Part shown: in pieces, positions 1-40,260 of the stretch
How the letters are laid out: each line of letters begins with the position of its first letter
How positions within the stretch are numbered: the stretch's first letter is position 1
IMG/VR virus record: IMGVR_UViG_3300033141_002294
Location: 1-64,000 of that record
DNA length: 64,000 bases
DNA from: a virus
Direction: 5' to 3' (one strand)
Position numbers and translations under genes: made by a program
Notes under the pieces: model-generated
Database searches by the model: none
Told to the model about the DNA's origin: nothing
What the model saw: the letters and a program-made list of their open reading frames with translations, nothing else

Positions 1-152
1 ACATACTCGTCGGGCGCTTCCTCGATCCACTCCAGATTCAGCAGTTGCTTGATGCGATTCGGGCTGGTGATGGCCGATGACTGTAGCCTGTCGCCCGGCT
101 CGTAGGTCGTACCGCCCGTGTAGAACCGCTTTCTTACAACGTAGGTCGTCAT
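1..152 (-). CDS. small phage protein, 3' end cut by window edge
   Basis: The ATG at 152 overlaps the stop of the upstream gene (ATGA) and the frame stays open to base 1, giving at least 50 residues. The visible part begins MTTYVVRKRFYTGG and goes on through a YEPGD turn and an IKQLL helix. This resembles the short basic proteins often found just after capsid genes in tailed phages, but no function is assigned. It is the last visible gene of the late operon; head-tail connector and tail-tube genes would be expected beyond the edge. Confidence 0.65.
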   Translation of the reverse strand, partial: MTTYVVRKRFYTGGTTYEPGDRLQSSAITSPNRIKQLLNLEWIEEAPDEY

Positions 153-1039
153 TTGCAGAACACCTCGTTGATGTAGTGTGTTCCCTCATACGCTCCCGCC
201 AATTGGTGATGGGCGACGTTGTGGGTTTCCGCTTGCTTGCGGGCCTCGGCTTCCTCCCTGGCTATTTGCGCCAGTAGCTGGTCGAATGCCGCCTTGCAGA
301 TCTTCGCCTTATCCGGCCCGAGGTTCTTCGTCAGCCAGCCGATTGCTCCGCGGGCACCGATACACTGATTTACATGGCCCTCGGCTTTGGCCTTCTCTCT
401 CGCGTGGGCATTCCGCTTCTCGGCGAGTTCGCCCAGGCGGTCGCGGAGTTTGGGTCCCATGATGTTTTCCTCGAACCCGTAACGATAGGCCGACTTCAGC
501 AGGTCGGACTCCGGCGGTATGTAGACCTCGATACCCTGACCCAACGCCCAGCCGATGAGGAGTTCACACGATGGCCGCTGGTGCGCGTACTCCGTCTGTT
601 GCGCCATATCGACGCCGTAGATGCGGATCTCCTTGAACCTCTGATGGATGGCCAGGGCGATCATGTAGCTCACGGAGTTCGTCCAGTAGTCGGGGAACAG
701 GTTGAAAACCGCCTGCGGAAACTCGATGCCGTTGGGAATATCCGGGTGCGGTTTGCACAGGTAAACCGGGATGCCCATCTTCGCCAGCCGTTCGGCGTGA
801 TCCTCGCACCGCTCCTTGCCGCGCTTGCGGGTAAATCTGTCATAGTGCAGTTCGAACCAGCGGCTCCATGGAGCATTCTGCGGAATGTCGGGGTCGAGGT
901 AGAGTTCGTTCAGGCCCCAGTACTCGTAGTCGTCGGTCTTGTCCCAGGGCACGAATTTCTTCGAGTTCGCGAACCCCACGATGCAAACCCTGTCCTTGCG
1001 CTGCGGCTTGTCCTCAATGGTCTTGGTCTTGTCAGTCAT
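149..1039 (-). CDS. uncharacterised protein, candidate sugar transferase (paralogue 1)
   Basis: This 296-residue protein starts at an ATG behind AGGGGGTAA. It is a paralogue of the next gene upstream (1036..1605). Both share an N-terminal VCIVGFA/VAIVGGA glycine strand, a YWGLNELY or YWGFNELY block, WxRWFELH, VYPA/EFPQ, AYMIALAI-like helices, an IYGVD/MYGIN strand and a final GIEV..P..DLLK block. The C-terminal 60 residues are a charged Ala/Lys/Glu helix absent from the paralogue. The nucleotide-binding-like first strand and the position directly after pseB and pseC make a glycosyl- or nonulosonate-transferase role possible. That role is inferred from context; I do not recognise a named family. 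Confidence 0.8.
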   Translation of the reverse strand: MTDKTKTIEDKPQRKDRVCIVGFANSKKFVPWDKTDDYEYWGLNELYLDPDIPQNAPWSRWFELHYDRFTRKRGKERCEDHAERLAKMGIPVYLCKPHPDIPNGIEFPQAVFNLFPDYWTNSVSYMIALAIHQRFKEIRIYGVDMAQQTEYAHQRPSCELLIGWALGQGIEVYIPPESDLLKSAYRYGFEENIMGPKLRDRLGELAEKRNAHAREKAKAEGHVNQCIGARGAIGWLTKNLGPDKAKICKAAFDQLLAQIAREEAEARKQAETHNVAHHQLAGAYEGTHYINEVFCK

Positions 1040-1605
1040 TTTGCATTACCCCCTATGGTTTGTGGTGGATCAGCGAGGCCGTAAAGCCACTGTGCCTTCA
1101 GTAGGTCGCAGGTCGGCGACAGGTGCACTTCTATGCCCTTTCCTCTTGCCCAGCCGATGTAGTACTCCAGGCAGGAGCGCTGGGCCCTGTACTCATCGGA
1201 CAGCGATGTGTTGATTCCATACATGTAGATGCTTGGCCGTTTCTCCCAGATGGCCAGGGCTATCAACCATGCCGCAGAACCCGTCGCATACCGCCCGAAC
1301 TGGCAGGTCACTCCATATGCCGGATAAACGACGCTGTTTGGTATGGCCGGATGTACCTGCCACATGTAGACGGGCACCTGAAGAGCCGCCAGTGCCTTGA
1401 TGTGCTCCTCGGCTGGCGTTGGATAGTCCCTGTCCCATCTGTTGGCGTGTAGCTCGAACCAGCGCGCCCACGGCATGCCCGGGTATTTGCAGTAAAGTTC
1501 GTTGAACCCCCAGTAGTCCACATCGGAACGACCCAAAACGAAGTCGCTCCAAGCCGGGTCCTCCGGCGCTCCTCCCACAATTGCTACCCCGCGCAGGTTA
1601 CTCAA
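1036..1605 (-). CDS. uncharacterised protein, candidate sugar transferase (paralogue 2)
   Basis: This 189-residue protein is a shorter paralogue of the 149..1039 product, sharing its whole core but not its charged C-terminal helix. The start is a TTG at 1605, lying inside the last codons of pseC and preceded by GGGGGGTAAGG; no ATG is available nearby. Conserved blocks are IVGGAP, DYWGFNELY, RWFELHANRW, SAAWLIALAIW, IYMYGINTS and the C-terminal IGWARGKGIEVHLSP. The function is unknown. Overlap with pseC and the following gene implies co-translation with the sugar pathway. Confidence 0.8.
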   Translation of the reverse strand: MSNLRGVAIVGGAPEDPAWSDFVLGRSDVDYWGFNELYCKYPGMPWARWFELHANRWDRDYPTPAEEHIKALAALQVPVYMWQVHPAIPNSVVYPAYGVTCQFGRYATGSAAWLIALAIWEKRPSIYMYGINTSLSDEYRAQRSCLEYYIGWARGKGIEVHLSPTCDLLKAQWLYGLADPPQTIGGNAK

Positions 1606-2776
1606 TCACCTTACCCCCCAGTACTGTTTTCACGGCCTCGATAACCGTTTTTACATCCTCATTCGTCATTGCCGGGTACAGTGGGATCGTCAGGGTGCGC
1701 TCGTAGTACTGCTCGGCGTTGGGGCACGTCACGTTGGCATAGCCGTTGCGCCGATACCATGGGTGGTGGTAAACCGGCATGTAGTGTATCTGTGTGCCAA
1801 TACCCCTGTCGGCCAATTCCTTGCGCACATCATCGCGGGTGGTGCTCAGAGCGGTCCAGTCGACCTGGAGACTGTAGAGATGCCAGGCGGATTCGTCGCC
1901 GGGCCAGGGTCTGGGCAGGGCTACATGCTCCAGGTCGCAAAACGCTTTGTGATAGGCAGAAACAATCTCTAACCTGCGGGCCAGGAACCTGCGAAGCCAC
2001 CGAAGCTGTGACCTGCCCAGTGCGGCCTGAATATCGGTCATTCGGTAATTGTAGCCGAGGTCGACCATCAGACCATCTGGGCGGGTGAATCCGTGGTCGC
2101 GGAAGCACCGCAGGGCTTCCGCATATGCCGGGTTGCCCGTTGTGACTGCTCCGCCCTCACCGGTTGTGATCGTTTTAACGGGGTGGAAGCTGAACACCGT
2201 CATTTCAGCATACTCATTGCCGCCGACTCGGCCCGCGGGCGGCGACACCGCACCGAGTGCGTGAGAGGCATCAACGATGCCTATGCATCTGCGCACGTTT
2301 TCGGTGATCCATTTGCCGTTGAACAGACGGGGTCGGGTGTGTACTATGCCGATTTCCCTCCATGGCCGCCTGTCCCGCCAGGGATGCCCACACATATCAA
2401 CGGTGACCCAGCAATCCGTGTGCTCTGTAAGGGCTGCGCCTAACCGCTCGAAACTCGTGTCCGGTACATGCGGAGAGAACGCATCCACAAACACCGGTCT
2501 GCCACCGCAGTACAGTACGGCGTTGGCCGTGGCCGCAAACGTAATCGCCGGGACCAGCACCTCCGTGCCCGGTTTAACCCCGGCCACATGGTAGGCCGCA
2601 TGCAGTGCCGCCGTTCCGCTAGAGAACGTAACCGCATAATCGGCCCCTACGTACTCAGCCAGCGCCTCCTCGAAACGCTCGACGACCGGCCCCTGAGTGA
2701 GCCGGTCTGAGCGCAGAACTTCGGCTACCGCCTGAATGTCGTCTTCATCTACCCACTGTCTGCCGTATCCAAGCAT
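1598..2776 (-). CDS. pseC: UDP-4-amino-4,6-dideoxy-L-AltNAc aminotransferase (PseC-type)
   Basis: This is a DegT/DnrJ/EryC1/StrS-family PLP aminotransferase of 392 residues, the usual family length. The N-terminal blocks around SDRLTQGP and FSSGTAALHAAY and the segment VPAITFAATANAVLY are typical of PseC. The PLP lysine is predicted at K201 in SFHPVKTITTGEGG, with D169 in VDASHALGA contacting the pyridine nitrogen. In the pathway it transaminates the 4-keto sugar made by PseB. The start is the ATG behind GAGGGGGTAC; it overlaps the end of pseB by 28 bp. The central region between residues 130 and 165 is divergent. A perosamine-type aminotransferase is the alternative, but the pseB, pseG, pseI and pseF neighbours favour PseC. 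Confidence 0.9.
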   Translation of the reverse strand: MLGYGRQWVDEDDIQAVAEVLRSDRLTQGPVVERFEEALAEYVGADYAVTFSSGTAALHAAYHVAGVKPGTEVLVPAITFAATANAVLYCGGRPVFVDAFSPHVPDTSFERLGAALTEHTDCWVTVDMCGHPWRDRRPWREIGIVHTRPRLFNGKWITENVRRCIGIVDASHALGAVSPPAGRVGGNEYAEMTVFSFHPVKTITTGEGGAVTTGNPAYAEALRCFRDHGFTRPDGLMVDLGYNYRMTDIQAALGRSQLRWLRRFLARRLEIVSAYHKAFCDLEHVALPRPWPGDESAWHLYSLQVDWTALSTTRDDVRKELADRGIGTQIHYMPVYHHPWYRRNGYANVTCPNAEQYYERTLTIPLYPAMTNEDVKTVIEAVKTVLGGKVIE

Positions 2777-3741
2777 GTGATGTACCCCCTCAGATCATCT
2801 ACCCCCAGCCACCAGTCGTTTGTGTCACTGCGGTAGGACCAGCCTGCGGGTACCGGATCGCCGCTCTTGCACTCCTGCCAGTAGGGACTCGCTGAGTAGA
2901 TGATGTAGGTGCTGCCGTCTTGGCGGGTGTGGCGACTCTCCTGTTCCGAAATCAACTCTTCGTGTACCTTCTCGCCGCCTCTGATGCCGATGATGCGTTG
3001 CTCATAACCCGGAGCGACGGCCTCCGCAAGGTCGGTCACGCGCATGCTCGGCAGACGAGGGACAAACACCTCGCCCCCCTGCATGCGATCGAGGCATTGC
3101 AGGATAAACGCGGCGGCCTGGGGCAGCGTGATCCAAAACCGCGTCATTTGCGTGTCGGTGATGGTGACATAGCCCGACTTCGCTTGCTCTTGGAACAACG
3201 GGACCACCGAACCCCGCGACCCTACCACATTGCCGTATCGGGCCACCGCCAGCTGCGTGTTGCGTCCACCTGCGTAGACCGTGCCCTGGACCGTTACCCT
3301 TTCGGCGCACAACTTGGTTGCCCCATAGAGGTTAATCGGGTTAACTGCTTTATCCGTGCTGATGAGCAACATTTGAGACACGCCGCAGGCGATGCAGGCC
3401 GAGACGACGTTTTGGGTGCCGATGACGTTGGTCTTGATAACCTCGTCCGGATTGTACTCGCCAGAAGGCACCTGTTTGAGTGCAGCGGTATGGATGATTA
3501 TGTCTACTCCGCTCAGGGCCTGCATCAGGCGTGGCCGATCCCTGACGTCGCCCAGCCAGTAGCGCATGGGTGAGCCCGACATCGGGCGTTTCTGCGCCAT
3601 TTCTGATTGCTTGAGTTCATCCCGGCTGAACACGATGATTCGTCTAGGGGGGGAGGGGTGGGCCAACAGTGTCTTGACCAACTGCTGGCCCAGTGAACCC
3701 GTGCCGCCCGTGATTAGGACGCTTTTACCTTCAAACCGCAC
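2749..3741 (-). CDS. pseB: UDP-GlcNAc 4,6-dehydratase, inverting (PseB-type)
   Basis: This is an extended short-chain dehydrogenase/reductase of the FlaA1/PseB type. It shows the NAD(P)-binding GGTGSLG near the N-terminus, the AALKQVP loop, a STDKA motif and the YGATK pair (Y and K four residues apart) that replaces a classical YxxxK. PseB converts UDP-GlcNAc to the 4-keto-6-deoxy sugar with C5 inversion, the first committed step to pseudaminic acid. I place the start at the GTG at 3741 because GGAGGGG lies five bases upstream; an earlier GTG at 3756 overlaps the stop of the preceding gene and would add five residues (GGVGV-like) with no good ribosome site. The C-terminal 50 residues are rich in aromatic residues. 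Confidence 0.9.
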   Translation of the reverse strand: MRFEGKSVLITGGTGSLGQQLVKTLLAHPSPPRRIIVFSRDELKQSEMAQKRPMSGSPMRYWLGDVRDRPRLMQALSGVDIIIHTAALKQVPSGEYNPDEVIKTNVIGTQNVVSACIACGVSQMLLISTDKAVNPINLYGATKLCAERVTVQGTVYAGGRNTQLAVARYGNVVGSRGSVVPLFQEQAKSGYVTITDTQMTRFWITLPQAAAFILQCLDRMQGGEVFVPRLPSMRVTDLAEAVAPGYEQRIIGIRGGEKVHEELISEQESRHTRQDGSTYIIYSASPYWQECKSGDPVPAGWSYRSDTNDWWLGVDDLRGYITCLDTADSG

Positions 3742-3755
3742 TCCTACCCCTCCCA

Positions 3756-5471
3756 CTAAGTGGTTGTGATACTGCTGACCTGGTCGGTGCTCGATACGAT
3801 GAGCCAGCGCTCGCAGGTCTGGGCAATTAGCTGAACTACCTGGCCTGCACTGCCAAACACCAACCTACGATTGCTGCCGTCAAACGTGATGCCGGTAGAG
3901 CCCGTAGCGCCGCTGATGATGACGCTTGCCCACTCCGACGTGTTACTGATGCTGGCTGCAAAGATGGTCTTGTGTAAGCCCACCACCGGGTTCGCAAGGG
4001 TATACGTCGTGCCCGACGACGCACTGGTGATGGTTGACACACCGTAGGCCAGCAGAGTGTCACCGGGGCCGGACGATGCCTCTACGTTGTCGACCAGTCC
4101 GCCACTCGCCTTGAGTCTGCCCGACGCCTCGATGTCGCTGGTGGCGTTTACGCCCAGACAGGAGACATCGGAGGTGGCGTTGATGCTCAGGGCTGATGCG
4201 CTGCTGCTGAACGTCGCGCCAAGGGCGCTGATGTCGGAGGTCACACCAACCGACAAGAACGAACCGCTGCTGCTGACGGTCACCCCAAGGCTCACCGACA
4301 GATCGGATGTCACACCGAGAGAAGCGAACGTACCACTGCTGCTTGCCGTGAATCCTCGCGCCGATACGTCTGACGTTGCAGTCAGTCCGACGCAACTGAC
4401 ATCGGAGGTAACGCTGAGAGACAGCAGAGTGCCCGAGCTCGATGCCGTCAGACCACGACACGACAGGTCGGAGGTCAGGGTCGCCCCGACCGCAGACAGG
4501 TCGCTGGTGATGCCCAGCGAGAGGACCGACCCGCTACTGGAGGCGGTGAGCCCCCGACAGGACAGGTCAGATGTAAGCGTAGCACCGACGGCCGACAGGT
4601 CGGAAGTCACGCCAATGCTCAAGAACGAACCCGAACTGCTGACCGTAACACCCCGACTCACTTTGATGTCGCTCGTGACCGATAGCGACAGGGCAGAACC
4701 ACTGCTGCTGAGGGTCAAGCCACGGGCGGAGATGTCCGAGGTTGCCGTCAGTCCGAGACAACTGACGTCAGACGTGACACCGACGCTGAGAAACGATCCC
4801 GAACTGCTGGCGGTGAATCCCTGGCAGGTGATATCGCTCGAACTGGCGAGACTGTCCACCGTAGCATCGCTGGACAGGGTCAGACTGCGCCCGGTAATGC
4901 CGCTTGTCACGCCCACCGACAGGAAACTCCCGCTACTCGACGCCGTAAATCCCTGGCAGGTAATGTCGCTGGAGGACGCCAGGGAATCTACGGTTGCATC
5001 GCTGGACAGCGTCAGGGAACGTCCACTGATGCCGCTTGTTACGCCGACACTCAAAAATGAGCCACTACTCGATGCAGTGAATCCCTGGCAGGTGATGTCG
5101 CTACTCGACGCCACGCTGCCGACTGTGGCCTCACTCGAAAGAGTCAGGTTAATGCCGCTGATGCCACTACTGGAGGCGATGGTCGCGCCGACTACCGCAC
5201 TACTGGCGGTCAGGGTTTCGGCGGAGAAATCGCTCGTCAGTGTGAGCCCTCTGCCGGTAAACTCGCCGTCGGAGTCAATAGATGCCACGAGGGTTGTCGA
5301 ACTGTCGTAGATGTTGACGCTCCGGGCACCGGCGGCGTCCCTCAGTTTGAGGTTGATGTCTCCGGTACTGCTGTCGGGGCGGATGGTCACACCGCCGTCT
5401 TTACTGATTACCGTCTCGCCGAGGTCCGCACCCGGTGCATGGACCTGCCGACGGAACTTTTCAATACCCAT
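3756..5471 (-). CDS. Ser/Thr-rich repetitive structural (fibre-like) protein
   Basis: The product is about 571 residues. After an N-terminal 60 residues without repeats it is dominated by imperfect 20-28-residue units of the form TSDxSxxGxTxSSSGSxLSxGV. Serine is by far the most common residue. The regular short beta-strand pattern suggests a beta-helical or beta-solenoid fibre. The last 110 residues are non-repetitive and could be a tip or chaperone-like domain. The start chosen is the ATG at 5471 with GAGGTG six bases upstream (a GTG at 5480 lacks spacing). It lies between the capsid gene and pseB. The hydroxyl-rich repeats make it the obvious candidate acceptor for the sugar pathway, which is inference. 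Confidence 0.85.
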   Translation of the reverse strand: MGIEKFRRQVHAPGADLGETVISKDGGVTIRPDSSTGDINLKLRDAAGARSVNIYDSSTTLVASIDSDGEFTGRGLTLTSDFSAETLTASSAVVGATIASSSGISGINLTLSSEATVGSVASSSDITCQGFTASSSGSFLSVGVTSGISGRSLTLSSDATVDSLASSSDITCQGFTASSSGSFLSVGVTSGITGRSLTLSSDATVDSLASSSDITCQGFTASSSGSFLSVGVTSDVSCLGLTATSDISARGLTLSSSGSALSLSVTSDIKVSRGVTVSSSGSFLSIGVTSDLSAVGATLTSDLSCRGLTASSSGSVLSLGITSDLSAVGATLTSDLSCRGLTASSSGTLLSLSVTSDVSCVGLTATSDVSARGFTASSSGTFASLGVTSDLSVSLGVTVSSSGSFLSVGVTSDISALGATFSSSASALSINATSDVSCLGVNATSDIEASGRLKASGGLVDNVEASSGPGDTLLAYGVSTITSASSGTTYTLANPVVGLHKTIFAASISNTSEWASVIISGATGSTGITFDGSNRRLVFGSAGQVVQLIAQTCERWLIVSSTDQVSSITTT

Positions 5472-5579: not shown

Positions 5580-6581
5580 TCACGCCACGATGCTGGTAAA
5601 GTACGCTCCGAGGTCCGCAGCCACGACCTTCATATCGTAGGCCATTCCGCCTTCAATACGGTCGGCCTCCAGCTTTTCCATGCGGAATTTCTTCATCTTC
5701 ACGCCCATGTTGTTCAGGCCGGTGTAGCCCGACCAAGTGAACGTATAGCCCGCACTCGGAGTGCGCAGGCCGGGGGCAGGGGCCGCATAGCACAGCAACG
5801 CGCTCTTGCCGTAGATGAACGACTTGGTATGGCTCGTCCGGCCTTCGGGTGTGGTGACCTTGATGCAACGAGGCACGAAGATGCGGTCGACCTCGAACAG
5901 TCCGGCCAGAATCTCCGTGGTAACCACGCCGCGTTGGGTGTACTTGATGCGGTCGAGAATGTCTGGATGATGCTTCAGGCGGTCGAACACCTTCGGGCCG
6001 AGGACCAGTGTATTCGGCCATTTGCCCGTCTTCTCCATGATGCTGGTCGCCTGTTCCGACACATCCTCAATCGGCGTGGAGTCGACGTCATTCCACTGTA
6101 CCACCTCGTCGGTGCTCGGGGCGGATGATACGCCGGTGATGTCGGTCGACCCAGTAGCGCCGGTCCAGACGCCGGTGGTCATGTTGTCGGTGGCCCAGTC
6201 GATTTCGCGGGTCAGCAACAGGTTGCCCATAACGAACTCGGTGCCCTCGCGGTCCAATTGAATTACCGAGTCGGCATTGGCCCGCTCCTGGTCGGCGACG
6301 TCCTTGTGAAACGCGTACACGTCGCAGCGGTAGCTGTCAGTATTGAGCTTATACCCGCCACCTGCGGATTCTGTAGCCGGAGCGCGCTTTTGCGCTTCGG
6401 CCCGGAACCAGTAGTCCATGTCGTAGGTGTAGTAGATGTCACTCTGTTTCTGGACCGGGACTCGCGGGAATACCCGGTCCGCGATATACTCACTGGCGTC
6501 CTGCATGAATGCGATGCTGAGGTTGGTCAGCACTGCATTTTGATGCACGTCAGTTGCCGTTGGGTTCGGCAATGCATTCAC
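5580..6581 (-). CDS. major capsid protein
   Basis: This 333-residue protein matches a well-known family of siphovirus major capsid proteins. The start has the LSIAFMQDASEYIADRVFP block. Next come PVQKQSDIYYTYD, the WFRAEAQKRAP.TESAGGGY block and a CDVYAFHKDVADQERAN helix. Later come the VVQWND and PNTLVLGPKVFDRLKHHPDI segments, and a C-terminal ADRIEGGMAYDMKVVAADLG. The gene follows protease, scaffold and decoration genes in the standard head order. The SD is AAGGGAGAGTGA. Confidence 0.93.
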   Translation of the reverse strand: MNALPNPTATDVHQNAVLTNLSIAFMQDASEYIADRVFPRVPVQKQSDIYYTYDMDYWFRAEAQKRAPATESAGGGYKLNTDSYRCDVYAFHKDVADQERANADSVIQLDREGTEFVMGNLLLTREIDWATDNMTTGVWTGATGSTDITGVSSAPSTDEVVQWNDVDSTPIEDVSEQATSIMEKTGKWPNTLVLGPKVFDRLKHHPDILDRIKYTQRGVVTTEILAGLFEVDRIFVPRCIKVTTPEGRTSHTKSFIYGKSALLCYAAPAPGLRTPSAGYTFTWSGYTGLNNMGVKMKKFRMEKLEADRIEGGMAYDMKVVAADLGAYFTSIVA

Positions 6582-8602: not shown

Positions 8603-9589
8603 TCACCTCCTGCGTTTCCTAAGTGCCTGCTTCACCTCACGGACAATCCGCTCCGTCCCACGCCCGTCGACCAGTTTCCGCAGGCCGCGGTGCATCCGCA
8701 GGCGGGTCCTGTAGGTCAATTGCTTTAGGGCACCGCGGAGCTTGTCCGGGTAGAACTCTCGCACCATACCGAGGTCGATAGCCAGTTCACGGCGCGCCAA
8801 ATATTCGCTATTGGCCGCCTGATCATCGTTCGTGCGGACGATGATGGCTGGAACGCCCATCCGGGCAACCTCAAACAACATCTGGCCGCCGCCAGTGATG
8901 GCAATATCGGCCAGCTTAAGGTGCGGGGCTAGCGTCGACACGCCCTGCAACACTGAGTAGTTACAGCCCAATAGCCGCAGTCTGTGTGGTTCACTATTGG
9001 CCCATTGCTTTATACATTTATCAATTGCCTCTCTTGACGACGAAGGCCCCACAACTACGGTAAGCCACAACCATGCTTGATACCCCGGCAAAGCTTCGAG
9101 AACACGCTTTGTAATCTCGGTGGTGTCCCCGCCGCCCATTACTACCAATAGGTGGAGGGGGCCTCTCTTTGGGATTCTGCGCTTTTCAGTTATGTATTCT
9201 GGCCTGTACTCCTCGCCGAGTATGGCGTATTTGCACCCTTCAAGCTTTCGGGTAATGCCATCCCATGTGCCAGACCATGGCCCTATGCGCCGTGCGTCGA
9301 ACCTGGAATCGACAACAATGTCTGGAGGAACCGGGGCGGCGTAGTCTTCGGTCAGCACGATTACCAGATTGCCCGACTCTCTGTGCTGTTGGACCAGTCG
9401 TTCGGCCTCTTCGGTGCGCTTCCATACGGTGGCGCATCCTGCGATTCTTGCGTTGAAGCACGGTGCGTCTAGAATGGCTATCCTTTCATTGCCCAACCCC
9501 GCGTTCTCCAGGGCTCCCTTCAGCCGCTCAACCCGCTTCACATGCCCCATGCCGATATTCGGGCCTGATTCGGTGTAGGTGGTGATCAT
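8603..9589 (-). CDS. pseG: UDP-sugar hydrolase (PseG-type)
   Basis: This is a GT28/MurG-fold nucleotide-sugar hydrolase. PseG removes UDP from the acylated 2,4-diamino-2,4,6-trideoxy-L-altrose intermediate. The N-terminal GMGHVKR motif holds the conserved His (H16); a VVDSRFDARR aspartate strand and a C-terminal ITGGGQMLFEVARMGVP block follow, then NDDQAANSEYLARR. The start is the ATG at 9589, overlapping the stop of the upstream membrane-protein gene (ATGA). A longer frame to 9814 only shadows that gene. At 328 residues it is a little longer than bacterial PseG, with a basic tail. Confidence 0.88.
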   Translation of the reverse strand: MITTYTESGPNIGMGHVKRVERLKGALENAGLGNERIAILDAPCFNARIAGCATVWKRTEEAERLVQQHRESGNLVIVLTEDYAAPVPPDIVVDSRFDARRIGPWSGTWDGITRKLEGCKYAILGEEYRPEYITEKRRIPKRGPLHLLVVMGGGDTTEITKRVLEALPGYQAWLWLTVVVGPSSSREAIDKCIKQWANSEPHRLRLLGCNYSVLQGVSTLAPHLKLADIAITGGGQMLFEVARMGVPAIIVRTNDDQAANSEYLARRELAIDLGMVREFYPDKLRGALKQLTYRTRLRMHRGLRKLVDGRGTERIVREVKQALRKRRR

Positions 9590-9837
9590 AGCAGGTCCTC
9601 GTAAACTATGGTGCAGAACATGAAAAGCCCGACGACAAAAGCGAAAAGCGCACCAGCCCCAGTCAGTATGTATTGGCTGTAGGGATAGGTATTTGCTATT
9701 ACGTCGGCAGCCATCCACATCGCGAGTGCCCCGCCGCTTGCCAGTGCAGCCGCGCCGATAAATACCAGCAAGGCACGACCGACAACCCTCACTCCTTCTC
9801 CTAATCCCCACCAAGCCCGGCTCAAGATGTCCTTCAT
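9586..9837 (-). CDS. small membrane protein
   Basis: This 83-residue protein has two clear hydrophobic segments (about 21-47 and 58-79) and a basic N-terminus. The start is supported by GAGGGGGTAC. It is one of a series of tiny membrane proteins inserted between the sugar-pathway genes. Function is unknown; roles in membrane docking of the pathway or surface exclusion are only possibilities. Confidence 0.7.
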   Translation of the reverse strand: MKDILSRAWWGLGEGVRVVGRALLVFIGAAALASGGALAMWMAADVIANTYPYSQYILTGAGALFAFVVGLFMFCTIVYEDLL

Positions 9838-9858
9838 CTTCGTACCCCCTCGATGATG

Positions 9859-10044
9859 TTACCCCGATTGACTATCGGTTGCTTTGAGCACTGCGCATGC
9901 AGCTAGGTATCCTCCCACGCATCCCAACGCCCAGCCCGGGTAGCCAAGTCCCAACCCTATACTCAACAACGCCCCGCCGGAACCCATAAGCCCCACGAAT
10001 AGCAGTACATCAAACAACGTCTCAGCCCACTCGGGAACTTCCAC
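9859..10044 (-). CDS. small membrane protein
   Basis: This 61-residue product has a GTG start behind GAGGGGGTAG. Two glycine-rich hydrophobic segments cover most of residues 11-52. The last residues are polar (KATDSQSG). There is no recognised family. It lies between pseI and another small membrane-protein gene. Confidence 0.65.
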   Translation of the reverse strand: MEVPEWAETLFDVLLFVGLMGSGGALLSIGLGLGYPGWALGCVGGYLAACAVLKATDSQSG

Positions 10045-10077
10045 GAAACTACCCCCTCACGAACAGAGCAGTGCAGC

Positions 10078-11127
10078 CTAATCCCTTGGATTGATGCTAA
10101 CGTCATCCAACATGACCGGCTCACCTTTCTGGCCCGGGAATATGACCTCGACTCTGTCGTGGTAGCGTAGGGCCTCGGCAGGGAGATGGAATCCGCTTGT
10201 AGCCGACGGAGTCGGGGCTGGCCGTACCGTTGTAATCAGGTCCTGCCATCGACCCACTTCGCGTTTTCTGACGTCTCTCGCCCAGTAACATGCCCTACGA
10301 ATTTGGGGCTGCGCCTTGGTCACTGCCACCACTGCCTCTCGTGGCGGCCCGAAAGGTGCGGTTCCATCCTCAACGTCACGAATCGCTTGCACCAGTGCCG
10401 CAAACTCATGCGGCTCCAGAGCATGGCCGTGGTCCGGGCCGTCCTGTTCGCGGCTCATGGTGATATGCTTTTCCACCATCCGCCCACCAAACGCCACCGA
10501 AGCCGCCGGCAAGCCTATGCTCGTCGTATGGTCGGAAATGCCAACATCGATACGCAGACCGGTGCGCCGAAACGCCTCCTGCTGGCGTTGCAGCATCGGC
10601 AGATGGTACATCACGGGCGTTGCCGGGTACACCGGCACACAGTGCAGAATGGTAATTTGCGGGTTGCTGCTGACAGACGAAATCCAGTAAGCGGCTCGGG
10701 TTACGTCACGCCAGCTTGACGCTCCCTGTGACAACACAACGGGCCGTGATGGCCGCATTTCGGCCATGCGCTCAATCAACGCCCTGTACGTCAGGTCTCC
10801 CGAGGCGACCTTCCAGAACGGCACCCACAGCTCGTCCAGCAGTTCAACCGCCTCAAAGTCAAACGGCGTTGAGTTGAACGCTATGCCGCATTCTGCCGCG
10901 TAGTCGGCCAGTTCCTCGTGCCATTTCCTGGGCAACTGACACCGACGAATCAGGTCGTAGGCCCAATGCGTGGGGTGACACAGCCCATCCTCCGTGTACG
11001 TCTGGAACTTGATACAGTCTACTCCGGCCTCGGCCGCCGCCTTGATGAGTTTCTTTGCCTCGTCCTTGTCGCCGTTGAAATTCGCCCCTGCGTCGGCCAC
11101 TGTCACGGTACGGGTCCAGTCGATCAT
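10078..11127 (-). CDS. pseI: pseudaminic acid synthase (PseI/NeuB family)
   Basis: This is a NeuB-type (beta/alpha)8 synthase that condenses phosphoenolpyruvate with the six-carbon amino sugar to give a nine-carbon nonulosonic acid. Family features include the N-terminal ADAGANFNGDKDEAKKLI, KFQTYT, a TPFD.EAVELLDEL helix, KVASGDL, the HCVPVYP strand, GISDHT and EKHITMSREQDGPDH (metal and PEP site). An antifreeze-like SAF segment follows residue 270 (RRACYWARDVRKREVG). The start is the ATG at 11127, seven bases after AAGGGGT; an upstream ATG at 11145 would put the ribosome site inside the gene. PseI rather than NeuB or LegI is chosen from the neighbours. Confidence 0.9.
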   Translation of the reverse strand: MIDWTRTVTVADAGANFNGDKDEAKKLIKAAAEAGVDCIKFQTYTEDGLCHPTHWAYDLIRRCQLPRKWHEELADYAAECGIAFNSTPFDFEAVELLDELWVPFWKVASGDLTYRALIERMAEMRPSRPVVLSQGASSWRDVTRAAYWISSVSSNPQITILHCVPVYPATPVMYHLPMLQRQQEAFRRTGLRIDVGISDHTTSIGLPAASVAFGGRMVEKHITMSREQDGPDHGHALEPHEFAALVQAIRDVEDGTAPFGPPREAVVAVTKAQPQIRRACYWARDVRKREVGRWQDLITTVRPAPTPSATSGFHLPAEALRYHDRVEVIFPGQKGEPVMLDDVSINPRD

Positions 11128-11131
11128 GTTC

Positions 11132-11536
11132 TTACCCCTTTGCACTTGTTATGCCTATGGCCACCAAAATCACGGGCAGTAAGAGCGCCAGAATCGCCGA
11201 CCCTATAGGCATCAACTTGCGCTCCAGTCGCCATAGGGCCGGTATAGAATCCGGCCCATGTTTCCACTCTCTGATCGCGCATTTTTCCACCCACGCGCAA
11301 CACCAGCCGCCGACAATTGGGATGCACGTCCCGACAATAAGGATGGTCAGAAACAAGACAAAGGCGATCAGCTGCCATCCCATGCATAGCACATCCGGAT
11401 GGGTTGCTACGCACAGCAGGCTGGCCACTCCTATAACGATCAGCACCAACCCGACGGCTTGGCGGCAGACAATCCACCATGTTTTGTCCATCAAGTCCCT
11501 CATCGCCCAATGCCATTCAGGTGTAGATGCGTACAT
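11132..11536 (-). CDS. membrane protein, three predicted segments
   Basis: This 134-residue protein has hydrophobic stretches near 24-43, 52-76 and 111-131 and several cysteines (WCCAWVEKC). It starts at an ATG behind AAGGGGGTAACAC. No family is recognised. It is four bases upstream of the pseI start. Confidence 0.7.
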   Translation of the reverse strand: MYASTPEWHWAMRDLMDKTWWIVCRQAVGLVLIVIGVASLLCVATHPDVLCMGWQLIAFVLFLTILIVGTCIPIVGGWCCAWVEKCAIREWKHGPDSIPALWRLERKLMPIGSAILALLLPVILVAIGITSAKG

Positions 11537-11584
11537 GTGTTACCCCCTTGTCGCATGTCGGCCCCAGGCCAGGAATCGGCTCAA

Positions 11585-11701
11585 TCACAGGAGCCACACC
11601 GCCCATACTGGCACATGCCATGCCGCAACCGCATACCACTTCAATACCAACACTGCGCCCCATGCGATGCCAATTATAAGCAGCGCTTTTCCGGCTTCCA
11701 T
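11585..11701 (-). CDS. tiny membrane protein, 38 residues
   Basis: An ATG at 11701 follows AAGGGGGTAAAAAC, the same ribosome site used by its neighbours. The product begins MEAGKALLIIGIAWG, contains one long hydrophobic segment with four Trp residues, and ends WAVWLL. Confidence 0.6.
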   Translation of the reverse strand: MEAGKALLIIGIAWGAVLVLKWYAVAAWHVPVWAVWLL

Positions 11702-11739
11702 GTTTTTACCCCCTTTGGTGTGGTTACCCCGCATCATGA

Positions 11740-12009
11740 TTACAGCCTCTCTCCTCGGCTATATCGCGTCCGCCGCTCCCGCATCGACAAAGGTTCTGTG
11801 GAATGATAGAGATACTCCAGATTTAGGGAGCGCTCTGGGTATCGTGCTCGGACAGCCGCACCAATCGGCAGGTCAAGGACGTCAAAGTGCCTGCCAAACC
11901 ACATGCGCCAAATGCACAAATACAAAGTGCCGTCGGCGTCAATGTACCAAGACCAGTAGGCAAGAGGGAGCAACTGTTTGATGTACCAGAGCAGGCTAGT
12001 CAGTTTCAT
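11740..12009 (-). CDS. small aromatic-rich protein, possibly membrane-associated
   Basis: This 89-residue protein has an N-terminal aromatic/hydrophobic stretch (LLWYIKQLLPLAYWSWYI) and a strongly basic C-terminus. The SD is GGGGAGGGG. There is no known family. It sits between the formyltransferase and the small membrane-protein genes. Confidence 0.65.
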   Translation of the reverse strand: MKLTSLLWYIKQLLPLAYWSWYIDADGTLYLCIWRMWFGRHFDVLDLPIGAAVRARYPERSLNLEYLYHSTEPLSMRERRTRYSRGERL

Positions 12010-12030
12010 GGCTACCCCTCCCCAAGTGTG

Positions 12031-12855
12031 TTACCCCAGTCTAGTGTCCTCCGTCTTAAGCCGAAACAGCATAGAACCGGTGCGTTGCTTCTGTCTGTCT
12101 TCCGCCGTCTCCATCTCCAGCCTCAGATATATTCGCCCGACGCCGGGCACCGTGAAGTATGCCCCTTGGTGTGGTAGAAATGTTCTGGCCCGCAGTGTGT
12201 TCAGCAGATCGCGGGCTGTGTATTTCACGCCCAGGTCGATTTCATCAATTGCATCGAGATCAGACAGTCTGCGATGCGTTCCGGCTTCGGGGTCCTGCGG
12301 CGTCCGGGGAGCCGTGCCGTCCTTGATACTGGGCCACGTGCCTTGGAAGAGTTTTGCCCCTGCATCCAGCAGTTTGCTGTGCAGTGTCTCGCCTGTATCC
12401 CAGGGCTGCACGTCGACGCGCTCCTGCGCAATGATGTCCCCAGTATCAATGCCCTCATCCATCCAGTGCAACGTGACCCCCGCCGGTGTGCCGTCGATGA
12501 TGGGCCAGACGTTGGGGCAGGCACCTCGATTGTAGGGGAGATAGCCGGTGTGGAGGTTGACGATGGGCAAACGGTCCAACAAATCCTTTGGCACTTTGTA
12601 CCCAAAGCCAGCACTGATACCGATGTCGGGCTTGAGACCTAGGGCCTGTTTCCACCACGGCATGTCGCCCGGCTGTTCGCCAAACGGATCGCCACAGAAG
12701 ACAGAGGCGTCCCAGTGGCAGCATCGAATATCCTTCTTGAGCCGCGCCGTCTCATCCGGGTGGACCACAAGGCCGACGACGTTCTCTCGCAGGTGCTGGA
12801 GGCTATAGGCTACGTCGGCTCCGAGTTGGCTATTCGCCAGCAGGAGGATGCGCAC
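12031..12855 (-). CDS. sugar N-formyltransferase (formyl-THF dependent, Fmt/ArnA fold)
   Basis: This 274-residue protein has the formyltransferase catalytic triad: N100 and H102 in NLHTGYLP, and an aspartate in DTGD (137-140). An Fmt-like C-terminal segment follows. Related enzymes formylate 4-amino sugars on nucleotide carriers. In this cluster it occupies the place of the N-acetyltransferase PseH, so it probably formylates the amine made by PseC, giving an N-formyl pseudaminic-type sugar. The start is a GTG behind CGGGGGTGAATCC. It overlaps the upstream Cys-rich gene by 46 bp. Confidence 0.82.
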   Translation of the reverse strand: MRILLLANSQLGADVAYSLQHLRENVVGLVVHPDETARLKKDIRCCHWDASVFCGDPFGEQPGDMPWWKQALGLKPDIGISAGFGYKVPKDLLDRLPIVNLHTGYLPYNRGACPNVWPIIDGTPAGVTLHWMDEGIDTGDIIAQERVDVQPWDTGETLHSKLLDAGAKLFQGTWPSIKDGTAPRTPQDPEAGTHRRLSDLDAIDEIDLGVKYTARDLLNTLRARTFLPHQGAYFTVPGVGRIYLRLEMETAEDRQKQRTGSMLFRLKTEDTRLG

Positions 12856-13163
12856 GGATTCACCCCCGACATTTCACGTAGTTCCTGCGCACTCCGCCCC
12901 ACGGTGTTTCTACAGGCCGCCGTGCACGTGCTGACTCCAGTTATCTCAAGCACGTCCTGCCACCGGCAATTGCAGATGGCGGTTTTCGGAATGTCGCCTA
13001 CACGGTTGGGGCATTTCGGGATATCCGGCACCGAGCACCGATGCCCAGGCCGCACACATCGGCAGGTGACTGTCTCGGGGTCCCACATTCTACAAGTGGC
13101 CGTTTCCAGGGTGCCGTCGGGCCGCTTGTGGGCCGTCTTGGGACAGTTCTTCAGTTGCGACAT
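12810..13163 (-). CDS. cysteine-rich protein of unknown function
   Basis: This 117-residue protein begins MSQLKNCPKTAHKRP and contains about eleven cysteines in irregular CxC, CxxxC and CxNC-like arrangements, suggesting metal binding or disulfides. The start is the ATG at 13163 behind GGAGTAGC, inside the last codons of pseF. It overlaps the formyltransferase gene in another frame. No signal peptide was seen. Confidence 0.6.
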   Translation of the reverse strand: MSQLKNCPKTAHKRPDGTLETATCRMWDPETVTCRCVRPGHRCSVPDIPKCPNRVGDIPKTAICNCRWQDVLEITGVSTCTAACRNTVGRSAQELREMSGVNPCASSCWRIANSEPT

Positions 13164-13894
13164 TTTGCTACTCCTGTCTGATTTGTGAGGCTCTCTTTTG
13201 CCCACCTGAGTACTGCCCCCGTATCCGGCTTAGGCCCGAGCTCGTCGAACACCTGCGTGAGCCAGTCGTAGTCGTTTTGGTCGTCGATGGATAGTTTGCA
13301 GGCGCGGCCGCTTCCGATGTAGGGTAGAATAGCTTCTGCTGAGACTCGCAGACTACGCACCTCGGACCACGGCACTGCCCGGTACCATCCCCACCGGGCC
13401 GGCAACCGGGATGTCACGTGCTCACGCTCGTCAGGGTACAGTCGGCCTGGGTTGATGCGCAGGAACTCCCACGCGTCCACTAGCTCGGCCCCGGCACCGT
13501 CTGTCATACAGCGCTTGGTCGCGTCGATGTAGGCAAACAGGCTGTCCTCCTCGGCTACGGTGACCATGCCTGCCAAAAGCTGCGGATCAACCAGCGGACA
13601 GTCTCCGGTAACCCTCAGGAACACGTCCGGTTGCTCCTGCTCCACCACAGCCCGAAACCGCCCGAAGACGTCATTCTCGTCGCCCTGCCACTTGTGCACT
13701 TTGCAACCCAGGGACTCAGCTAGCTCAATGATGGGCTTGTCCTCAGCAGGCGTGGTCACAACCACGTCAAGGACCGCCTGCTGTGTCCTCCTGATGACGT
13801 GCTCCAAAACAGGACGCCCGGCTAGGGGTAAGAGCACCTTGCCGGGCAGTCGAGAGGAGTCGAGGCGGGCCTGGATTATAGCGATGGTTTTCAT
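13151..13894 (-). CDS. pseF: CMP-nonulosonic acid cytidylyltransferase (PseF/SpsF-like)
   Basis: This 247-residue GT-A-fold nucleotidyltransferase starts MKTIAIIQARLDSSRLPGK, the signature P-loop of the SpsF/acylneuraminate cytidylyltransferase group. It then shows LAGRPVLEHVI, a VVTTPAEDKPI strand, RVTGDCPLVDP (metal-binding Asp) and a LSIDDQNDYDWL C-terminal block. The reaction activates the sugar acid with CTP. Other CMP-sugar or polyol substrates cannot be excluded from sequence, but pseI downstream supports the call. It is the first sugar-pathway gene after the portal and minor-head genes. Confidence 0.85.
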   Translation of the reverse strand: MKTIAIIQARLDSSRLPGKVLLPLAGRPVLEHVIRRTQQAVLDVVVTTPAEDKPIIELAESLGCKVHKWQGDENDVFGRFRAVVEQEQPDVFLRVTGDCPLVDPQLLAGMVTVAEEDSLFAYIDATKRCMTDGAGAELVDAWEFLRINPGRLYPDEREHVTSRLPARWGWYRAVPWSEVRSLRVSAEAILPYIGSGRACKLSIDDQNDYDWLTQVFDELGPKPDTGAVLRWAKESLTNQTGVAKCRN

Positions 13895-20294: not shown

Positions 20295-21383
20295 CTACAG
20301 GATTTTCGACCATTTCTCCACCATCTCGGGGCTCAACCCCCGGCTGACTACCGGCACGTTGTTCTCCCAGTCATTTAACAGTATCTGCCTGCACTGGTGC
20401 CGATGCACCGCTTCATTCTCCGCCTGCCCTGCAAAGCGCTTCCTAAATCGCTCCACCTTGTCCGTCGGCGTAGTGTCTAGCAGATAGTCGCGGTATTCCC
20501 TCCAGGTGCCGAAATGGGGGGGGAGCTCGTCGGCCGAGTACACCTGCCTGTCGTCTGCGTATAGCGCCGCACAGTGGATGCCCTGCAGCCTCCGTAGCAA
20601 CCGCTCGTAGGTCTCCGGCTCGAACTCCTGGAGGTTGGCGAGGCAGTAGAATGCCTTCTCATGAATGAGGTTCGACACCCGCATATCACTGATGTTGTGG
20701 CCTATTTTGGCGAACATCTGGTCGTAGACGGGGTTGTACTCTAGGTTGTGGTCGGCGATATACTTCCAGATGTCGGGGAAGCACCAGTCGTAAATAGGGT
20801 AGAACCTCCAAGCCTGGGGGTTCTTAGTCTTCGTGCTCCACCATATGCCCTTGTAGCCCGGGTTCCTGGTAATTGCGCGAAACCGGTTGAGGCTCTCTTT
20901 CGACCTGATACCCACTAGCATAGCGGTAGGCTCCTCAAACTGCGTCTCCAGCCAGTCGAAGAATTTGTAGAATCGCCTCGGGTAGTCCACATCGAGGGAG
21001 TGGATCGCGATGTCGCTCTTCTCCCGCATCCATTCCTCTCCCTCTCCCCAGGCGTAGAGGAAATACTCGCGGTGTGACGTCGCGTTAGTCATGTAGATCG
21101 GCACCTGATACCACATGGGAATGACCCGGGGATGGCGCATCATGCCGTCTATCAGGCGCACGGTTGCAGCATATTCGGCCTCCTGGTCGAGGAAAAACAC
21201 TTTCACCTTTCTGTCACGCCGCTCTGCCTCCTCAATGGCCAGGTGAAACAAGACCGTGCTGTCTTTACCCGACGACACACTGACGACGATGTTGTCAAAC
21301 TCGTCGAAGACCCTGGCAACCCGCTGCCTCGCGGCCTCCAGGACGTCTATGTCTTTGTACTCTACCAGTGCTGCCTTAGCCAT
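20295..21383 (-). CDS. PAPS reductase-family protein with DUF3440 (IbrA-like)
   Basis: This 362-residue protein has the ATP-pyrophosphatase P-loop SGKDS at 38-42, then a FFLDQEAEY strand. The C-terminal two thirds match DUF3440-type proteins: SLNRFRAI, KGIWWSTKTKNPQAWRFYPIYDW, DIWKYIADHNLEYNPVYDQM and GHNISDMRVSNLIHEKA. IbrA, a prophage protein, has this layout and works with a ParB-like IbrB; a ParB-like gene lies in the same run here. These proteins activate a substrate with ATP and are linked to sulfur chemistry. The start chosen is the ATG at 21383 behind GGAGGGG. Confidence 0.85.
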   Translation of the reverse strand: MAKAALVEYKDIDVLEAARQRVARVFDEFDNIVVSVSSGKDSTVLFHLAIEEAERRDRKVKVFFLDQEAEYAATVRLIDGMMRHPRVIPMWYQVPIYMTNATSHREYFLYAWGEGEEWMREKSDIAIHSLDVDYPRRFYKFFDWLETQFEEPTAMLVGIRSKESLNRFRAITRNPGYKGIWWSTKTKNPQAWRFYPIYDWCFPDIWKYIADHNLEYNPVYDQMFAKIGHNISDMRVSNLIHEKAFYCLANLQEFEPETYERLLRRLQGIHCAALYADDRQVYSADELPPHFGTWREYRDYLLDTTPTDKVERFRKRFAGQAENEAVHRHQCRQILLNDWENNVPVVSRGLSPEMVEKWSKIL

Positions 21384-22155
21384 AGCGCAACCCCTCCGCA
21401 ATGGCATTCGTCAGGTCCATCAGGCCCACCAGTTCGCTCACCAGATGCTCGTCGACCTTCAGGTCCGTGCGTACTACCTCATGCTGCTCCCGGTCGAACA
21501 GTCTTGCTGGCGTGGGGACCCTGCGCTCAGGGCAGACATCTCTGGCATACCTCGCCAGCTTGGTGATTACCCCCCTGATGGTTGTCTCCGTCTCAAACAG
21601 GTATGTCTTCAGGTCCTCATACTCCAGCTTCTGCGCGGCCGTCGTCGGCACAACCCGGATCGTGGGTCTGCCGAAGTACTCTGCGTAGTCGCAAGTCACT
21701 GTGCCCTTCGCCCATCTCAGTATCTCCTCAGCCGAGAACGGGTTGAAGTCCGAAACATCCTCTTTCCACTGTTTCCAGCGGGTCTCTGCTATGTAGCTGT
21801 AGCTGTAGTCCAGGTACTGTGCGCCGACGAACCCGAAGTGGAACCACGTCCGCCAGGGTTCGCTGACGAACAGCGTCCGGTCTATCGACATCTTGCGGAT
21901 GTCGCGCATACGATTGTAGACTATCTCCCATACGTGCTTCGTGCGGCTGGAGGGGGTTATGAGCCTGTTCAGCCCGACCATCACGAGGTTGTCGAACCCC
22001 TTGATGCATCCCTGCGGGTCGTCCTCAAACCTCTCCCACTCGATTACCCGACTGCCCGGTATGTTTGGCGTAGGGTATGCCTTGTGCACCACGCAGACCG
22101 TTTTGCCGTCGAGTGGGGGGGAGAGGAACCCAATATCCTTACTCAGATAGATCAT
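21376..22155 (-). CDS. uncharacterised partner of the PAPS-reductase-family protein
   Basis: This 259-residue protein starts MIYLSKDIGFLSPPLDG; its ATG overlaps the upstream stop. The N-terminal half has Rossmann-like strands (VCVVHKAYPTP, DNLVMVGLNRLI) and aromatic-rich DYSYSYIAETRWKQW. The C-terminal third is helical. No family is recognised. Overlap with both neighbours points to one complex or pathway. Confidence 0.72.
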   Translation of the reverse strand: MIYLSKDIGFLSPPLDGKTVCVVHKAYPTPNIPGSRVIEWERFEDDPQGCIKGFDNLVMVGLNRLITPSSRTKHVWEIVYNRMRDIRKMSIDRTLFVSEPWRTWFHFGFVGAQYLDYSYSYIAETRWKQWKEDVSDFNPFSAEEILRWAKGTVTCDYAEYFGRPTIRVVPTTAAQKLEYEDLKTYLFETETTIRGVITKLARYARDVCPERRVPTPARLFDREQHEVVRTDLKVDEHLVSELVGLMDLTNAIAEGLRYG

Positions 22156-23394: not shown

Positions 23395-23894
23395 TCGATT
23401 TCACCCCACGCCGCACTGTATTCTGAACCGGCCAGGAGCTTCGCCGCCCCGCTCATCTGCTTCAGTCGTAGGAGCTCTTCCACGCTCATGCCCAAGTGTT
23501 CGGCGATCCGCTCGTCCTCCCAACCCTTTTCGTAGAGCGACCGGACCAACTCCGACATCAGGTCCACCTGGTGTTTGCCCCGTGCCCGGTTGTGTCTGAT
23601 GGTCGCGGCCATTCTCTGTTTGATGTCCTTGGCAATGACAACCACCGGGATTTCAGAACACTTGAAGTGGTTGACCAGCAGGGCGTAGCGATGGAACCCG
23701 TCAACCACAATGTACCTGCCCAGGTCCGGGTCATGGCAGACTACAATGGGTTGCGTGAGCCCGTCCTCTTCGATGCTCAGACGAAGCAGTTCCATCTCCG
23801 GTGTCGCAACCTTGTTCGGGTTGTAGTCGTTCGCCTGGACCTTCTCGGCGGGAACCATCTGCACTTCGAGGCATGGGAATGTGATGTCAGGCAA
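23391..23894 (-). CDS. ParB/sulfiredoxin-domain protein (IbrB-like)
   Basis: This 167-residue protein has a ParB-type N-terminal domain: VPAEKVQANDYNPN, LRLSIEEDGLTQPIVV, YIVVDGFHRYALL (the GxHR nucleotide motif as DGFHR) and HNRARGKH. A short helix-turn-helix-like tail follows (ERIAEHLGMSVEELLRLKQ). The start is a TTG with GGAGGTGAAG upstream. ParB folds can be CTPases or nucleases; IbrB is a ParB-like partner of PAPS-reductase-like IbrA. Confidence 0.85.
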   Translation of the reverse strand: MPDITFPCLEVQMVPAEKVQANDYNPNKVATPEMELLRLSIEEDGLTQPIVVCHDPDLGRYIVVDGFHRYALLVNHFKCSEIPVVVIAKDIKQRMAATIRHNRARGKHQVDLMSELVRSLYEKGWEDERIAEHLGMSVEELLRLKQMSGAAKLLAGSEYSAAWGEIE

Positions 23895-24609
23895 AGTTCT
23901 TCACCTCCGGCACCCTGTTTGCCAACTGGCCATAGAGTTCCGGGTAGTACCGCTTCAGCCAGACGTACCTGCCGTACTCCCGGTTGGTCTCCCCGGCCCA
24001 GTAGCTCACTCGTAGTTCCTCCCGTGGGGCGATTGCCGTCTTATCATAGGCGGGGTGGTAGGGAATTCGGTGATGGTCGATGTATACCCATACGTCCGCC
24101 TGCCTCCACCAGAGCATCGGCCACCCCTCCCACATCCCGTATTGCCTGGCCCAAAACAGGCTACCGTAGTGTGCCCCGCCCAGCCGCCTCCCCCGACTCT
24201 CTTCCGCCCGAATGCCGATTAGTCCTCCGTCATAGCCCTCGGCCACCAGTTGCCTCACCGGGTCATAGACTGTCGCCCTCATCGTGCGCTCTTCAATGCG
24301 AGGGTCATCCAGGCCGTACTCGGCCAGCACGTCAAGAATGGGCCTGGTCCTGACCACTCGGAAGTTGATGTCCCACTCGGCCACCAGCCGCTGCATGTAC
24401 TCCCATCCGTCCGGCAGGCAACTGTCGGCGTCGAGGTAGATGACCTCGATATCCGGCCTGATCTGGCGTGCAAACCACAACATCAATGTGCTGTCCTTCC
24501 CGCCCGACCATGCGAGGTATGGTCTCCGACACCGCGCCAGAAAGTCGCGGATCACCTGTTTTGTGGGTTCTCCCCGGACGCGCTCAATCCTCCTGGCTAG
24601 TGCGTCCAT
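23887..24609 (-). CDS. cysH: CysH-like PAPS reductase-family protein of a type IV-B CRISPR-like locus
   Basis: This 240-residue protein has the P-loop SGGKDS at 35-40, a VIYLDADSCLPDGWEY strand-loop, VRTRPIL, GLIGIRAEESRGR and a YWAGETNREYGR C-terminal block. CysH-like genes lie beside csf genes in type IV-B CRISPR-Cas loci, and this one directly follows csf3. The catalytic Cys of true PAPS reductases (ECGxH) is not seen, so reduction of PAPS itself is unlikely. The start is the ATG at 24609 behind GGAGG. Confidence 0.85.
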   Translation of the reverse strand: MDALARRIERVRGEPTKQVIRDFLARCRRPYLAWSGGKDSTLMLWFARQIRPDIEVIYLDADSCLPDGWEYMQRLVAEWDINFRVVRTRPILDVLAEYGLDDPRIEERTMRATVYDPVRQLVAEGYDGGLIGIRAEESRGRRLGGAHYGSLFWARQYGMWEGWPMLWWRQADVWVYIDHHRIPYHPAYDKTAIAPREELRVSYWAGETNREYGRYVWLKRYYPELYGQLANRVPEVKNFA

Positions 24610-25276
24610 GGAGTGCCTCCGCAGTCGGCAGGATGCATCGCGCCGCGTTCTCGGGATGCCAGTAGGGCGGCCTGATGCCCGCGATGTGTGGGCCGTCCGT
24701 CTGTGGGATGGCGCGCATCGGTTTGCCGGCGGAATCATGGCAAGACAGGTCCTCCGGCCAGGGTTCTACGCGCCATTCGGCAACCATCCCGTAGCCCATG
24801 CCGGTTTTCTTGCCTACCCCGATGATGGTATCCAGCAGGCTCCTGAGTTTGTCACCATTGCCCACGGCATACCATGTGAGTTCAGGCGTCACTAGGTACA
24901 CTATCGGCATCCGGTACTCTTTGTAATACCCGCTGGAGGTTGGTACTCTGCCCCGGCGGCCGTCGAAGTCGACCCTCCTGGTAGCCTCGTCGACGTTGAA
25001 TCGCTTATGCCAGTACGCTATGTGCTCTCCGTGCAACTCATACTGGGCGAATGAGCAGGCCCAGTACCATTCGCCGTCGGTCTCCCGGCGCTCCAGGGGC
25101 AGGGTGGGATGGAACAGGATGGCTCCCCCACACCGCCCCGCGGGGTTGTTGTAATACAGGTCCGGCCTGTGCCTGCGCATCCAGGCCGCGGCAATGATGC
25201 TGTCCAGGGGCAGGCGGCCATCGGTTGTGGCCACCTGCCCGGTCTCCAGGACTGCGGTAATCCTAAGCGGCTGCAA
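24584..25276 (-). CDS. csf3: type IV CRISPR-associated Csf3-like (Cas5-type) protein
   Basis: This 230-residue RAMP-type protein begins LQPLRITAVLETGQVATTDG. It ends the RAMP core with VGKKTGMGYGMVAEWRVEPW, the glycine-rich loop of Cas5/Cas6-fold proteins, and a C-terminal PPYWHPENAARCI follows. Csf3 is the Cas5-like subunit that caps the crRNA 5' end. The best start is the TTG at 25276 with GAGGTA upstream, overlapping csf2; in-frame ATGs further up would extend deep into csf2. Confidence 0.78.
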   Translation of the reverse strand: MQPLRITAVLETGQVATTDGRLPLDSIIAAAWMRRHRPDLYYNNPAGRCGGAILFHPTLPLERRETDGEWYWACSFAQYELHGEHIAYWHKRFNVDEATRRVDFDGRRGRVPTSSGYYKEYRMPIVYLVTPELTWYAVGNGDKLRSLLDTIIGVGKKTGMGYGMVAEWRVEPWPEDLSCHDSAGKPMRAIPQTDGPHIAGIRPPYWHPENAARCILPTAEALHGRTSQED

Positions 25277-39869: not shown

Positions 39870-40260
39870 CGCTCTTGGCCTCCTCCCTCTTAATCAGTAG
39901 CAACAACCGACACAGGGCGACGGCGAGGGTGGGGCCGGTGGCCTCCCTGCTTGTCCCGCGCAAGCCTGCGCGCCATCCAACGACCGCGCCTCCACGTATG
40001 GCCTGCGACATAAACACTGGCCACTTAGTAGCCCACTCCACCTCGGACAGGATGGCGTCGACGGACTGGTGATAGTACGGGACCTCTTTGGCCCCGTCAG
40101 CCTCCGAGTAGTAGTAGGCATCGCCCGCATACAGGTAGTCGCGCAGGGACATGATGTAGGCCGGTGCGGTCTCTGCGGTTACCCACTCCACCGCGTATCC
40201 CAGCGCCTCCTGCACCGCAACGTCCAGTTCCCGGCCCTCCAGGGTCTGGGGGTCAGTCAT
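39862..40260 (-). CDS. uncharacterised protein
   Basis: This 132-residue protein starts at the ATG at 40260 ([20 protein letters not shown]) with GGAGGAGG upstream. The [11 protein letters not shown] opening and a Tyr-rich middle resemble small phage proteins that carry a DUF2591-like shape, including [15 protein letters not shown] and a late [11 protein letters not shown] helix. The family is only suggested. Confidence 0.64.

Follow-up and report, generated by a model that had tools for sequence, protein, structure and literature searches.

A phage-encoded CMP-nonulosonate transferase acting on a head fibre, its candidate acceptor, was the best explanation of the gene at 3756–5471 and its surroundings, and it is considered reasonably likely on the basis of gene order and structure prediction. 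The DNA analysed (hereafter the window) is taken from a single IMG/VR virus record of 68,481 bases, of which it covers 64,000. In the proposed mechanism, a CMP-activated nonulosonic acid would be made late in infection by the phage's own enzymes, and the donor sugar would be pseudaminic-acid-like and probably N-formylated. Two CstII-like proteins would then transfer it, in the cytoplasm and before or during virion assembly, to a fibre in which the N-terminus would be on the capsid side and 33 eleven-residue units would form a beta-structured shaft leading to the C-terminal tip. The initial annotation had proposed this fibre as the best candidate acceptor. The proposal was upheld at the gene level by the pairing of tip and transferase genes, the CstII-like predicted fold and the co-occurrence of NeuB, but not for the repeats as the sites of attachment. 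The features of the window are listed in Table 1.

Table 1 Features of the predicted fibre and nonulosonate region of the window
Feature	Position	Strand	Basis or remark
GT42/CstII-like predicted transferase A, 296 aa, helical C-terminus	149..1039	-	AF2 pLDDT 80.5; Foldseek
GT42/CstII-like predicted transferase B, 189 aa	1036..1605	-	paralogue of A, 42% identical
pseC-like aminotransferase	1598..2776	-	TIGR03588 373.9 bits, below cut-off 423.5
pseB, UDP-GlcNAc 4,6-dehydratase (inverting)	2749..3756	-	TIGR03589 416.6 bits, cut-off 407.75
Predicted head-fibre gene	3756..5471	-	571 aa, single ORF, ATG at 5471, SD AGAGGTG
Ser/Thr C-terminal tail (...QVSSITTT)	3759..3782	-	Ser/Thr enrichment of last eight residues over 46 distinct proteins
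C-terminal tip domain	3777..4070	-	residues ~468-565; common to many transferase-linked phage proteins
Shaft, 33 tandem 11-residue units	4131..5225	-	residues 83-447, about 365 residues
Major capsid protein	5580..6581	-	phrog_1005, E 4e-89
pseG-like hydrolase, true start probably downstream	8603..9814	-	TIGR03590 E 1e-18, below cut-off
NeuB/PseI nonulosonate synthase	10078..11145	-	PF03102 E 4e-61
Sugar N-formyltransferase, possibly in place of PseH	12031..12855	-	PF00551 and PF18216
CMP-sugar cytidylyltransferase (PseF/NeuA-like)	13151..13894	-	PF02348 E 2e-22

The Ser/Thr-rich repeat protein reported previously is real, and so is its location: the major capsid gene immediately precedes the fibre gene and pseB follows it, as shown by the phrog_1005 and TIGR03589 matches, and an in-frame GTG at 5480 is an alternative start. 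Ser and Thr together make up 35.6% of the protein and 41% of its shaft. The autocorrelation of the protein exceeded that of shuffled sequences with z = 9.6, 11.4, 14.5 and 12.9 at lags of 11, 22, 33 and 44, and the repeat is thus far above chance. The description given in the initial annotation was right in substance, but the unit length had been misjudged, since the true unit is 11 residues and the units of 20–28 residues are pairs or triplets of it; the repeats extend over the shaft only and not over about 450 residues; and a separate conserved tip domain of ~100 residues (~468–571), which caps the shaft, had been missed. Residues 1–80 form a non-repetitive N-terminus. Within the unit, positions 8 and 9 are Ser or Thr in 100% of the copies and position 1 is so in 91%; hydrophobic residues occupy positions 2, 5 and 7. 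The fixed-position Ser/Thr are as expected of turns in what would be a beta-structured shaft. In the near-identical phage L032 the shaft is longer by exactly 22 residues, namely two whole units, and the tip is unchanged. The fibre protein had no match in Pfam, PHROG or NCBIfam, and tblastn searches of 50,697 phage records, with either the entire fibre or its tip as the query, gave none. A 417-aa open reading frame on the opposite strand (4057–5310, +) was rejected as an effect of codon usage, its length being reached in 43 of 300 synonymous shuffles.

The fibre gene sits in the head module, adjoining the capsid gene, and its product would be a head fibre or head spike carried on the virion. 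Phages whose capsid proteins are related to that of the window (about 50% identity; e.g. L010, L011, L016) carry, in the corresponding position, a short gene resembling that of a fibre or decoration protein, and the L016 tip is 33% identical to the window tip over residues 492–558. In a Foldseek search, the model of the window tip, which is of modest confidence (pLDDT 62), resembled the phage tailspike TSP4 of CBA120, T4 gp9 and the Pa223 capsid spike, the last as a weak fold match (E 0.019).

The two proteins encoded at 149–1605 have the predicted fold of CstII (GT42) sialyltransferases, and they would act as nonulosonate transferases. When the model of transferase A was compared with the PDB by Foldseek, the top 13 matches were all CstI/CstII of Campylobacter jejuni with probability 1.00 (best E 3e-5; TM-scores modest, 0.31–0.39 by query), and nothing significant followed them. 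A profile of the transferase family searched against PDB chains placed a CMP-Neu5Ac transferase (GT42) first, at a non-significant E of 0.057. GT42 enzymes use CMP-sialic acid; to our knowledge, those of known function act on sugars and not on Ser/Thr. The AF2 model of transferase A has helices at residues 194–295. No match to the transferases was found in Pfam, PHROGs or NCBIfam, and PF01973 was not among the families listed for 20 relatives. The CstII-like gene of L016 (12229–13836) is interrupted, within the motif that is conserved best (YGVDMAQD / C...HN / SEY), by an intein-like insertion, and a whole-contig search of L120 (contig of L086) found a single in-frame TAG codon within the transferase match.

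A search of IMG/VR with both proteins yielded 35 loci, and then 80 more, of the 138 found. In at least 40 unrelated phage loci, a tip domain is followed downstream by a homologue of the 149–1605 proteins, inside head modules and usually at a distance of 11–210 bp (at most about 0.7 kb). The tip protein is encoded directly upstream of the transferase in L016, L037–L040, L042, L056, L119–L122 and many more loci, and no other recognisable neighbour of the transferase is nearly as common. The collection searches, which used tip DNA patterns and a narrower transferase alignment, brought together 46 distinct tip proteins. Two scans of IMG/VR relied on a DNA pattern taken from the tip only, without the transferase as a query. 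Of the 11 distinct tip genes recovered, 10 had a transferase directly downstream, at 12–208 bp, a linkage measured only within the tip family because pattern and profile were built from transferase-linked tips; the exception was the tip phage L224/L227, which has no transferase. Since the capsid proteins of the tip-transferase phages are of several unrelated kinds, the tip protein appears to be the shared partner. The window has the same order, with the fibre upstream of the transferases, except that pseB and pseC lie in between. Adjacency to pseB, on which the candidacy of the fibre had been partly based, is the weaker reason for it: judging from gene order elsewhere, where the transferase directly follows the fibre, the pseB neighbour is a local insertion and incidental, and the pairing with the transferase is a much stronger signal.

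The window also encodes a predicted nonulosonate pathway. PseC, PseG, PseI and PseF were assigned to the right families, all below the equivalog cut-offs, and the synthase scores slightly better as NeuB. Because no PseH-like N-acetyltransferase was found among the open reading frames tested between 9586 and 14283 (-) and an N-formyltransferase is present, an N-formyl nonulosonate is suggested. NeuB (PF03102) was detected in 13 of 20 contigs which hold the tip-transferase pair, are at least 13.7 kb long and were not found through pse genes, and in 0 of 15 controls, which were capsid-protein relatives without the transferase and chance matches of the pattern scan (Fisher p 6e-5); the contigs are fragments, and NeuB was absent from the other seven. 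Transferases without a tip partner are often within 200 bp of a NeuB or CMP-sugar synthetase gene. In L040, NeuB occurs together with a NeuC-like gene (read by eye from the sequence), so the donor sugar may differ between phages. The head genes of the window and its near twin L002 are 90–100% identical, whereas pseG, pseF and the formyltransferase are only 53%, 66% and 68% identical, a divergence which suggests that the sugar cassette (8603–13894) has been exchanged. Elsewhere in the window there are two PAPS-reductase-like genes (phrog_2302; 20295–21407 and 23887–24738, -) and a gene for a DUF7666-like protein (below cut-off) with AWDAA-type repeats (40253–41080, -), which is overlapped by a probably spurious collagen-like PPGMPPG frame.

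The sugar may be attached in the tip and its Ser/Thr tail, in the shaft, or in both. Over the 46 distinct tip proteins, the Ser/Thr fraction of the last eight residues was 0.467 compared with 0.274 in the tip domain, and it was higher in 40 of them; the last residue was Ser or Thr in 65%, compared with 20% of other locus genes and 33% of Ser/Thr-rich ones. No correction for relatedness enters these statistics, and members linked to a transferase served to train the tip profile. The tail was considered as a marker of the acceptor, which is statistically striking, but the transferase-negative phage L224/L227 has the tip together with a ...STAAGYTT tail, so the Ser/Thr tail may have a structural cause, and the marker was kept as a possibility only. 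The shaft is almost absent or short in 17 of the 46 proteins and averages 22% Ser+Thr in the remainder, and hence attachment of the sugar to the Ser/Thr repeats was not specifically borne out. By this comparison, the window's shaft with 41% Ser/Thr is an outlier, and a long Ser/Thr-rich shaft is peculiar to this phage. Because the tail is rich in Ser/Thr and shafts elsewhere are often short, absent or poorer in these residues, the comparison favours the tip or tail as the site in common, with the shaft as an optional addition. That most of the sugar is carried by Ser/Thr of the shaft repeats, as in flagellin, is a non-exclusive sub-case of the preferred reading and appears doubtful. The excess of Ser/Thr over other transferase-linked shafts speaks for it, as does the presence of two transferase paralogues in the window, the second of which may have opened up a further class of sites; however, partners nearly without a shaft, the Glu-rich shaft of L119 and the fit of the shaft Ser/Thr positions to turns all speak against it.

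Another head protein, such as the major capsid protein or a small decoration protein, might instead be modified, with the fibre a mere neighbour and its Ser/Thr structural. In L193 and L210 a tip gene is missing and the transferase comes immediately after the capsid gene, which means that the acceptor may be another head protein; in other tip-less loci (L057, L045, L044, L046) the transferase follows further post-capsid genes. The alternation of shaft Ser/Thr at fixed unit positions with hydrophobic residues is likewise typical of fibre shafts, and glycosylated capsids are reported for mycobacteriophages (PMC11256854). This alternative is nevertheless judged unlikely, given how much commoner the tip is than any other recognisable partner and how varied the capsid proteins are. 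The tip-less post-capsid proteins encoded upstream of the transferase in L044 (3144–3686) and L046 (2–361) have Ser/Thr tails of their own (...TETTSTST and ...SSTSTSTSTST). A role of the pathway and its transferases in altering the surface of the host, which might prevent superinfection or keep phages from adsorbing to debris, is quite improbable: characterised GT42 enzymes do sialylate lipooligosaccharide and phages often encode receptor-modifying enzymes, but the genes lie within a late head operon and adjoin a virion gene in unrelated phages, no match to membrane or export families was seen, and only two homologues were found in 84,980 bacterial and archaeal species genomes, unlike lysogenic conversion genes.

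Modification of the fibre by the two predicted transferases thus remains the preferred reading. In its broader form, virus-specific CstII-like CMP-nonulosonate transferases and a head-fibre tip protein would constitute a mobile two-gene unit which sialylates the virions of many uncultured tailed phages, with the nonulosonate pathway often supplied by the phage; to this an even chance is given. Bacteriophage virions are usually considered unglycosylated. If the broader form is true, many environmental phages carry a dedicated system placing sialic-acid-like sugars on head fibres, and such sugars could alter how the particles adsorb to mucus and cells, how they are cleared and how the phage is recognised. 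The remark that a phage carries pse genes becomes a testable two-gene hypothesis. In the literature searched, no description of a phage tip-fibre/CstII-like transferase system was found, and a search on phage nonulosonates returned nothing relevant.

Several known systems resemble parts of this arrangement. With CstI/CstII of C. jejuni, the window proteins have in common the predicted fold and the core motif TS/TN..YM.A.AI..G..EI...G.D. However, there is no significant sequence match to CstII, the invariant WFE.H and E..E motifs are not known from it, and the window family is phage-specific, whereas the known GT42 acceptors are lipooligosaccharide sugars. Head spikes of phages and gene transfer agents, such as Rcc01080 of RcGTA, have a role in surface attachment (PMC7296036). 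The genes for Rcc01080 and the Pa223 capsid spike are near the capsid gene, as in the window, although no sequence similarity to the window fibre was shown and those systems have no glycosylation genes. In the flagellin transferase Maf (motility accessory factor, PF01973), a CstII-like central domain is joined to a C-terminus made of helices, and nonulosonic acids are added to exposed Ser/Thr (PMC11339370). Flagellin is O-glycosylated by Maf with pseudaminic or legionaminic acid. The likeness to the window lies in CMP-nonulosonate genes near a cytoplasmic transferase with CstII-like fold and helical C-terminus, and in a Ser/Thr-rich surface filament as the presumed acceptor; transferase A differs in having no PF01973 match and no N-terminal Maf domain, and its neighbour is a phage head-fibre gene with no flagellin nearby. 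For the mycobacteriophages Che8 and Rita, virion glycosylation with capsid (and tail) proteins as acceptors is described (PMC11256854). Although the transferases described there are different and no nonulosonate pathway appears to be reported for them, these phages resemble the window in encoding glycosyltransferases which are thought to act on virion surface proteins.
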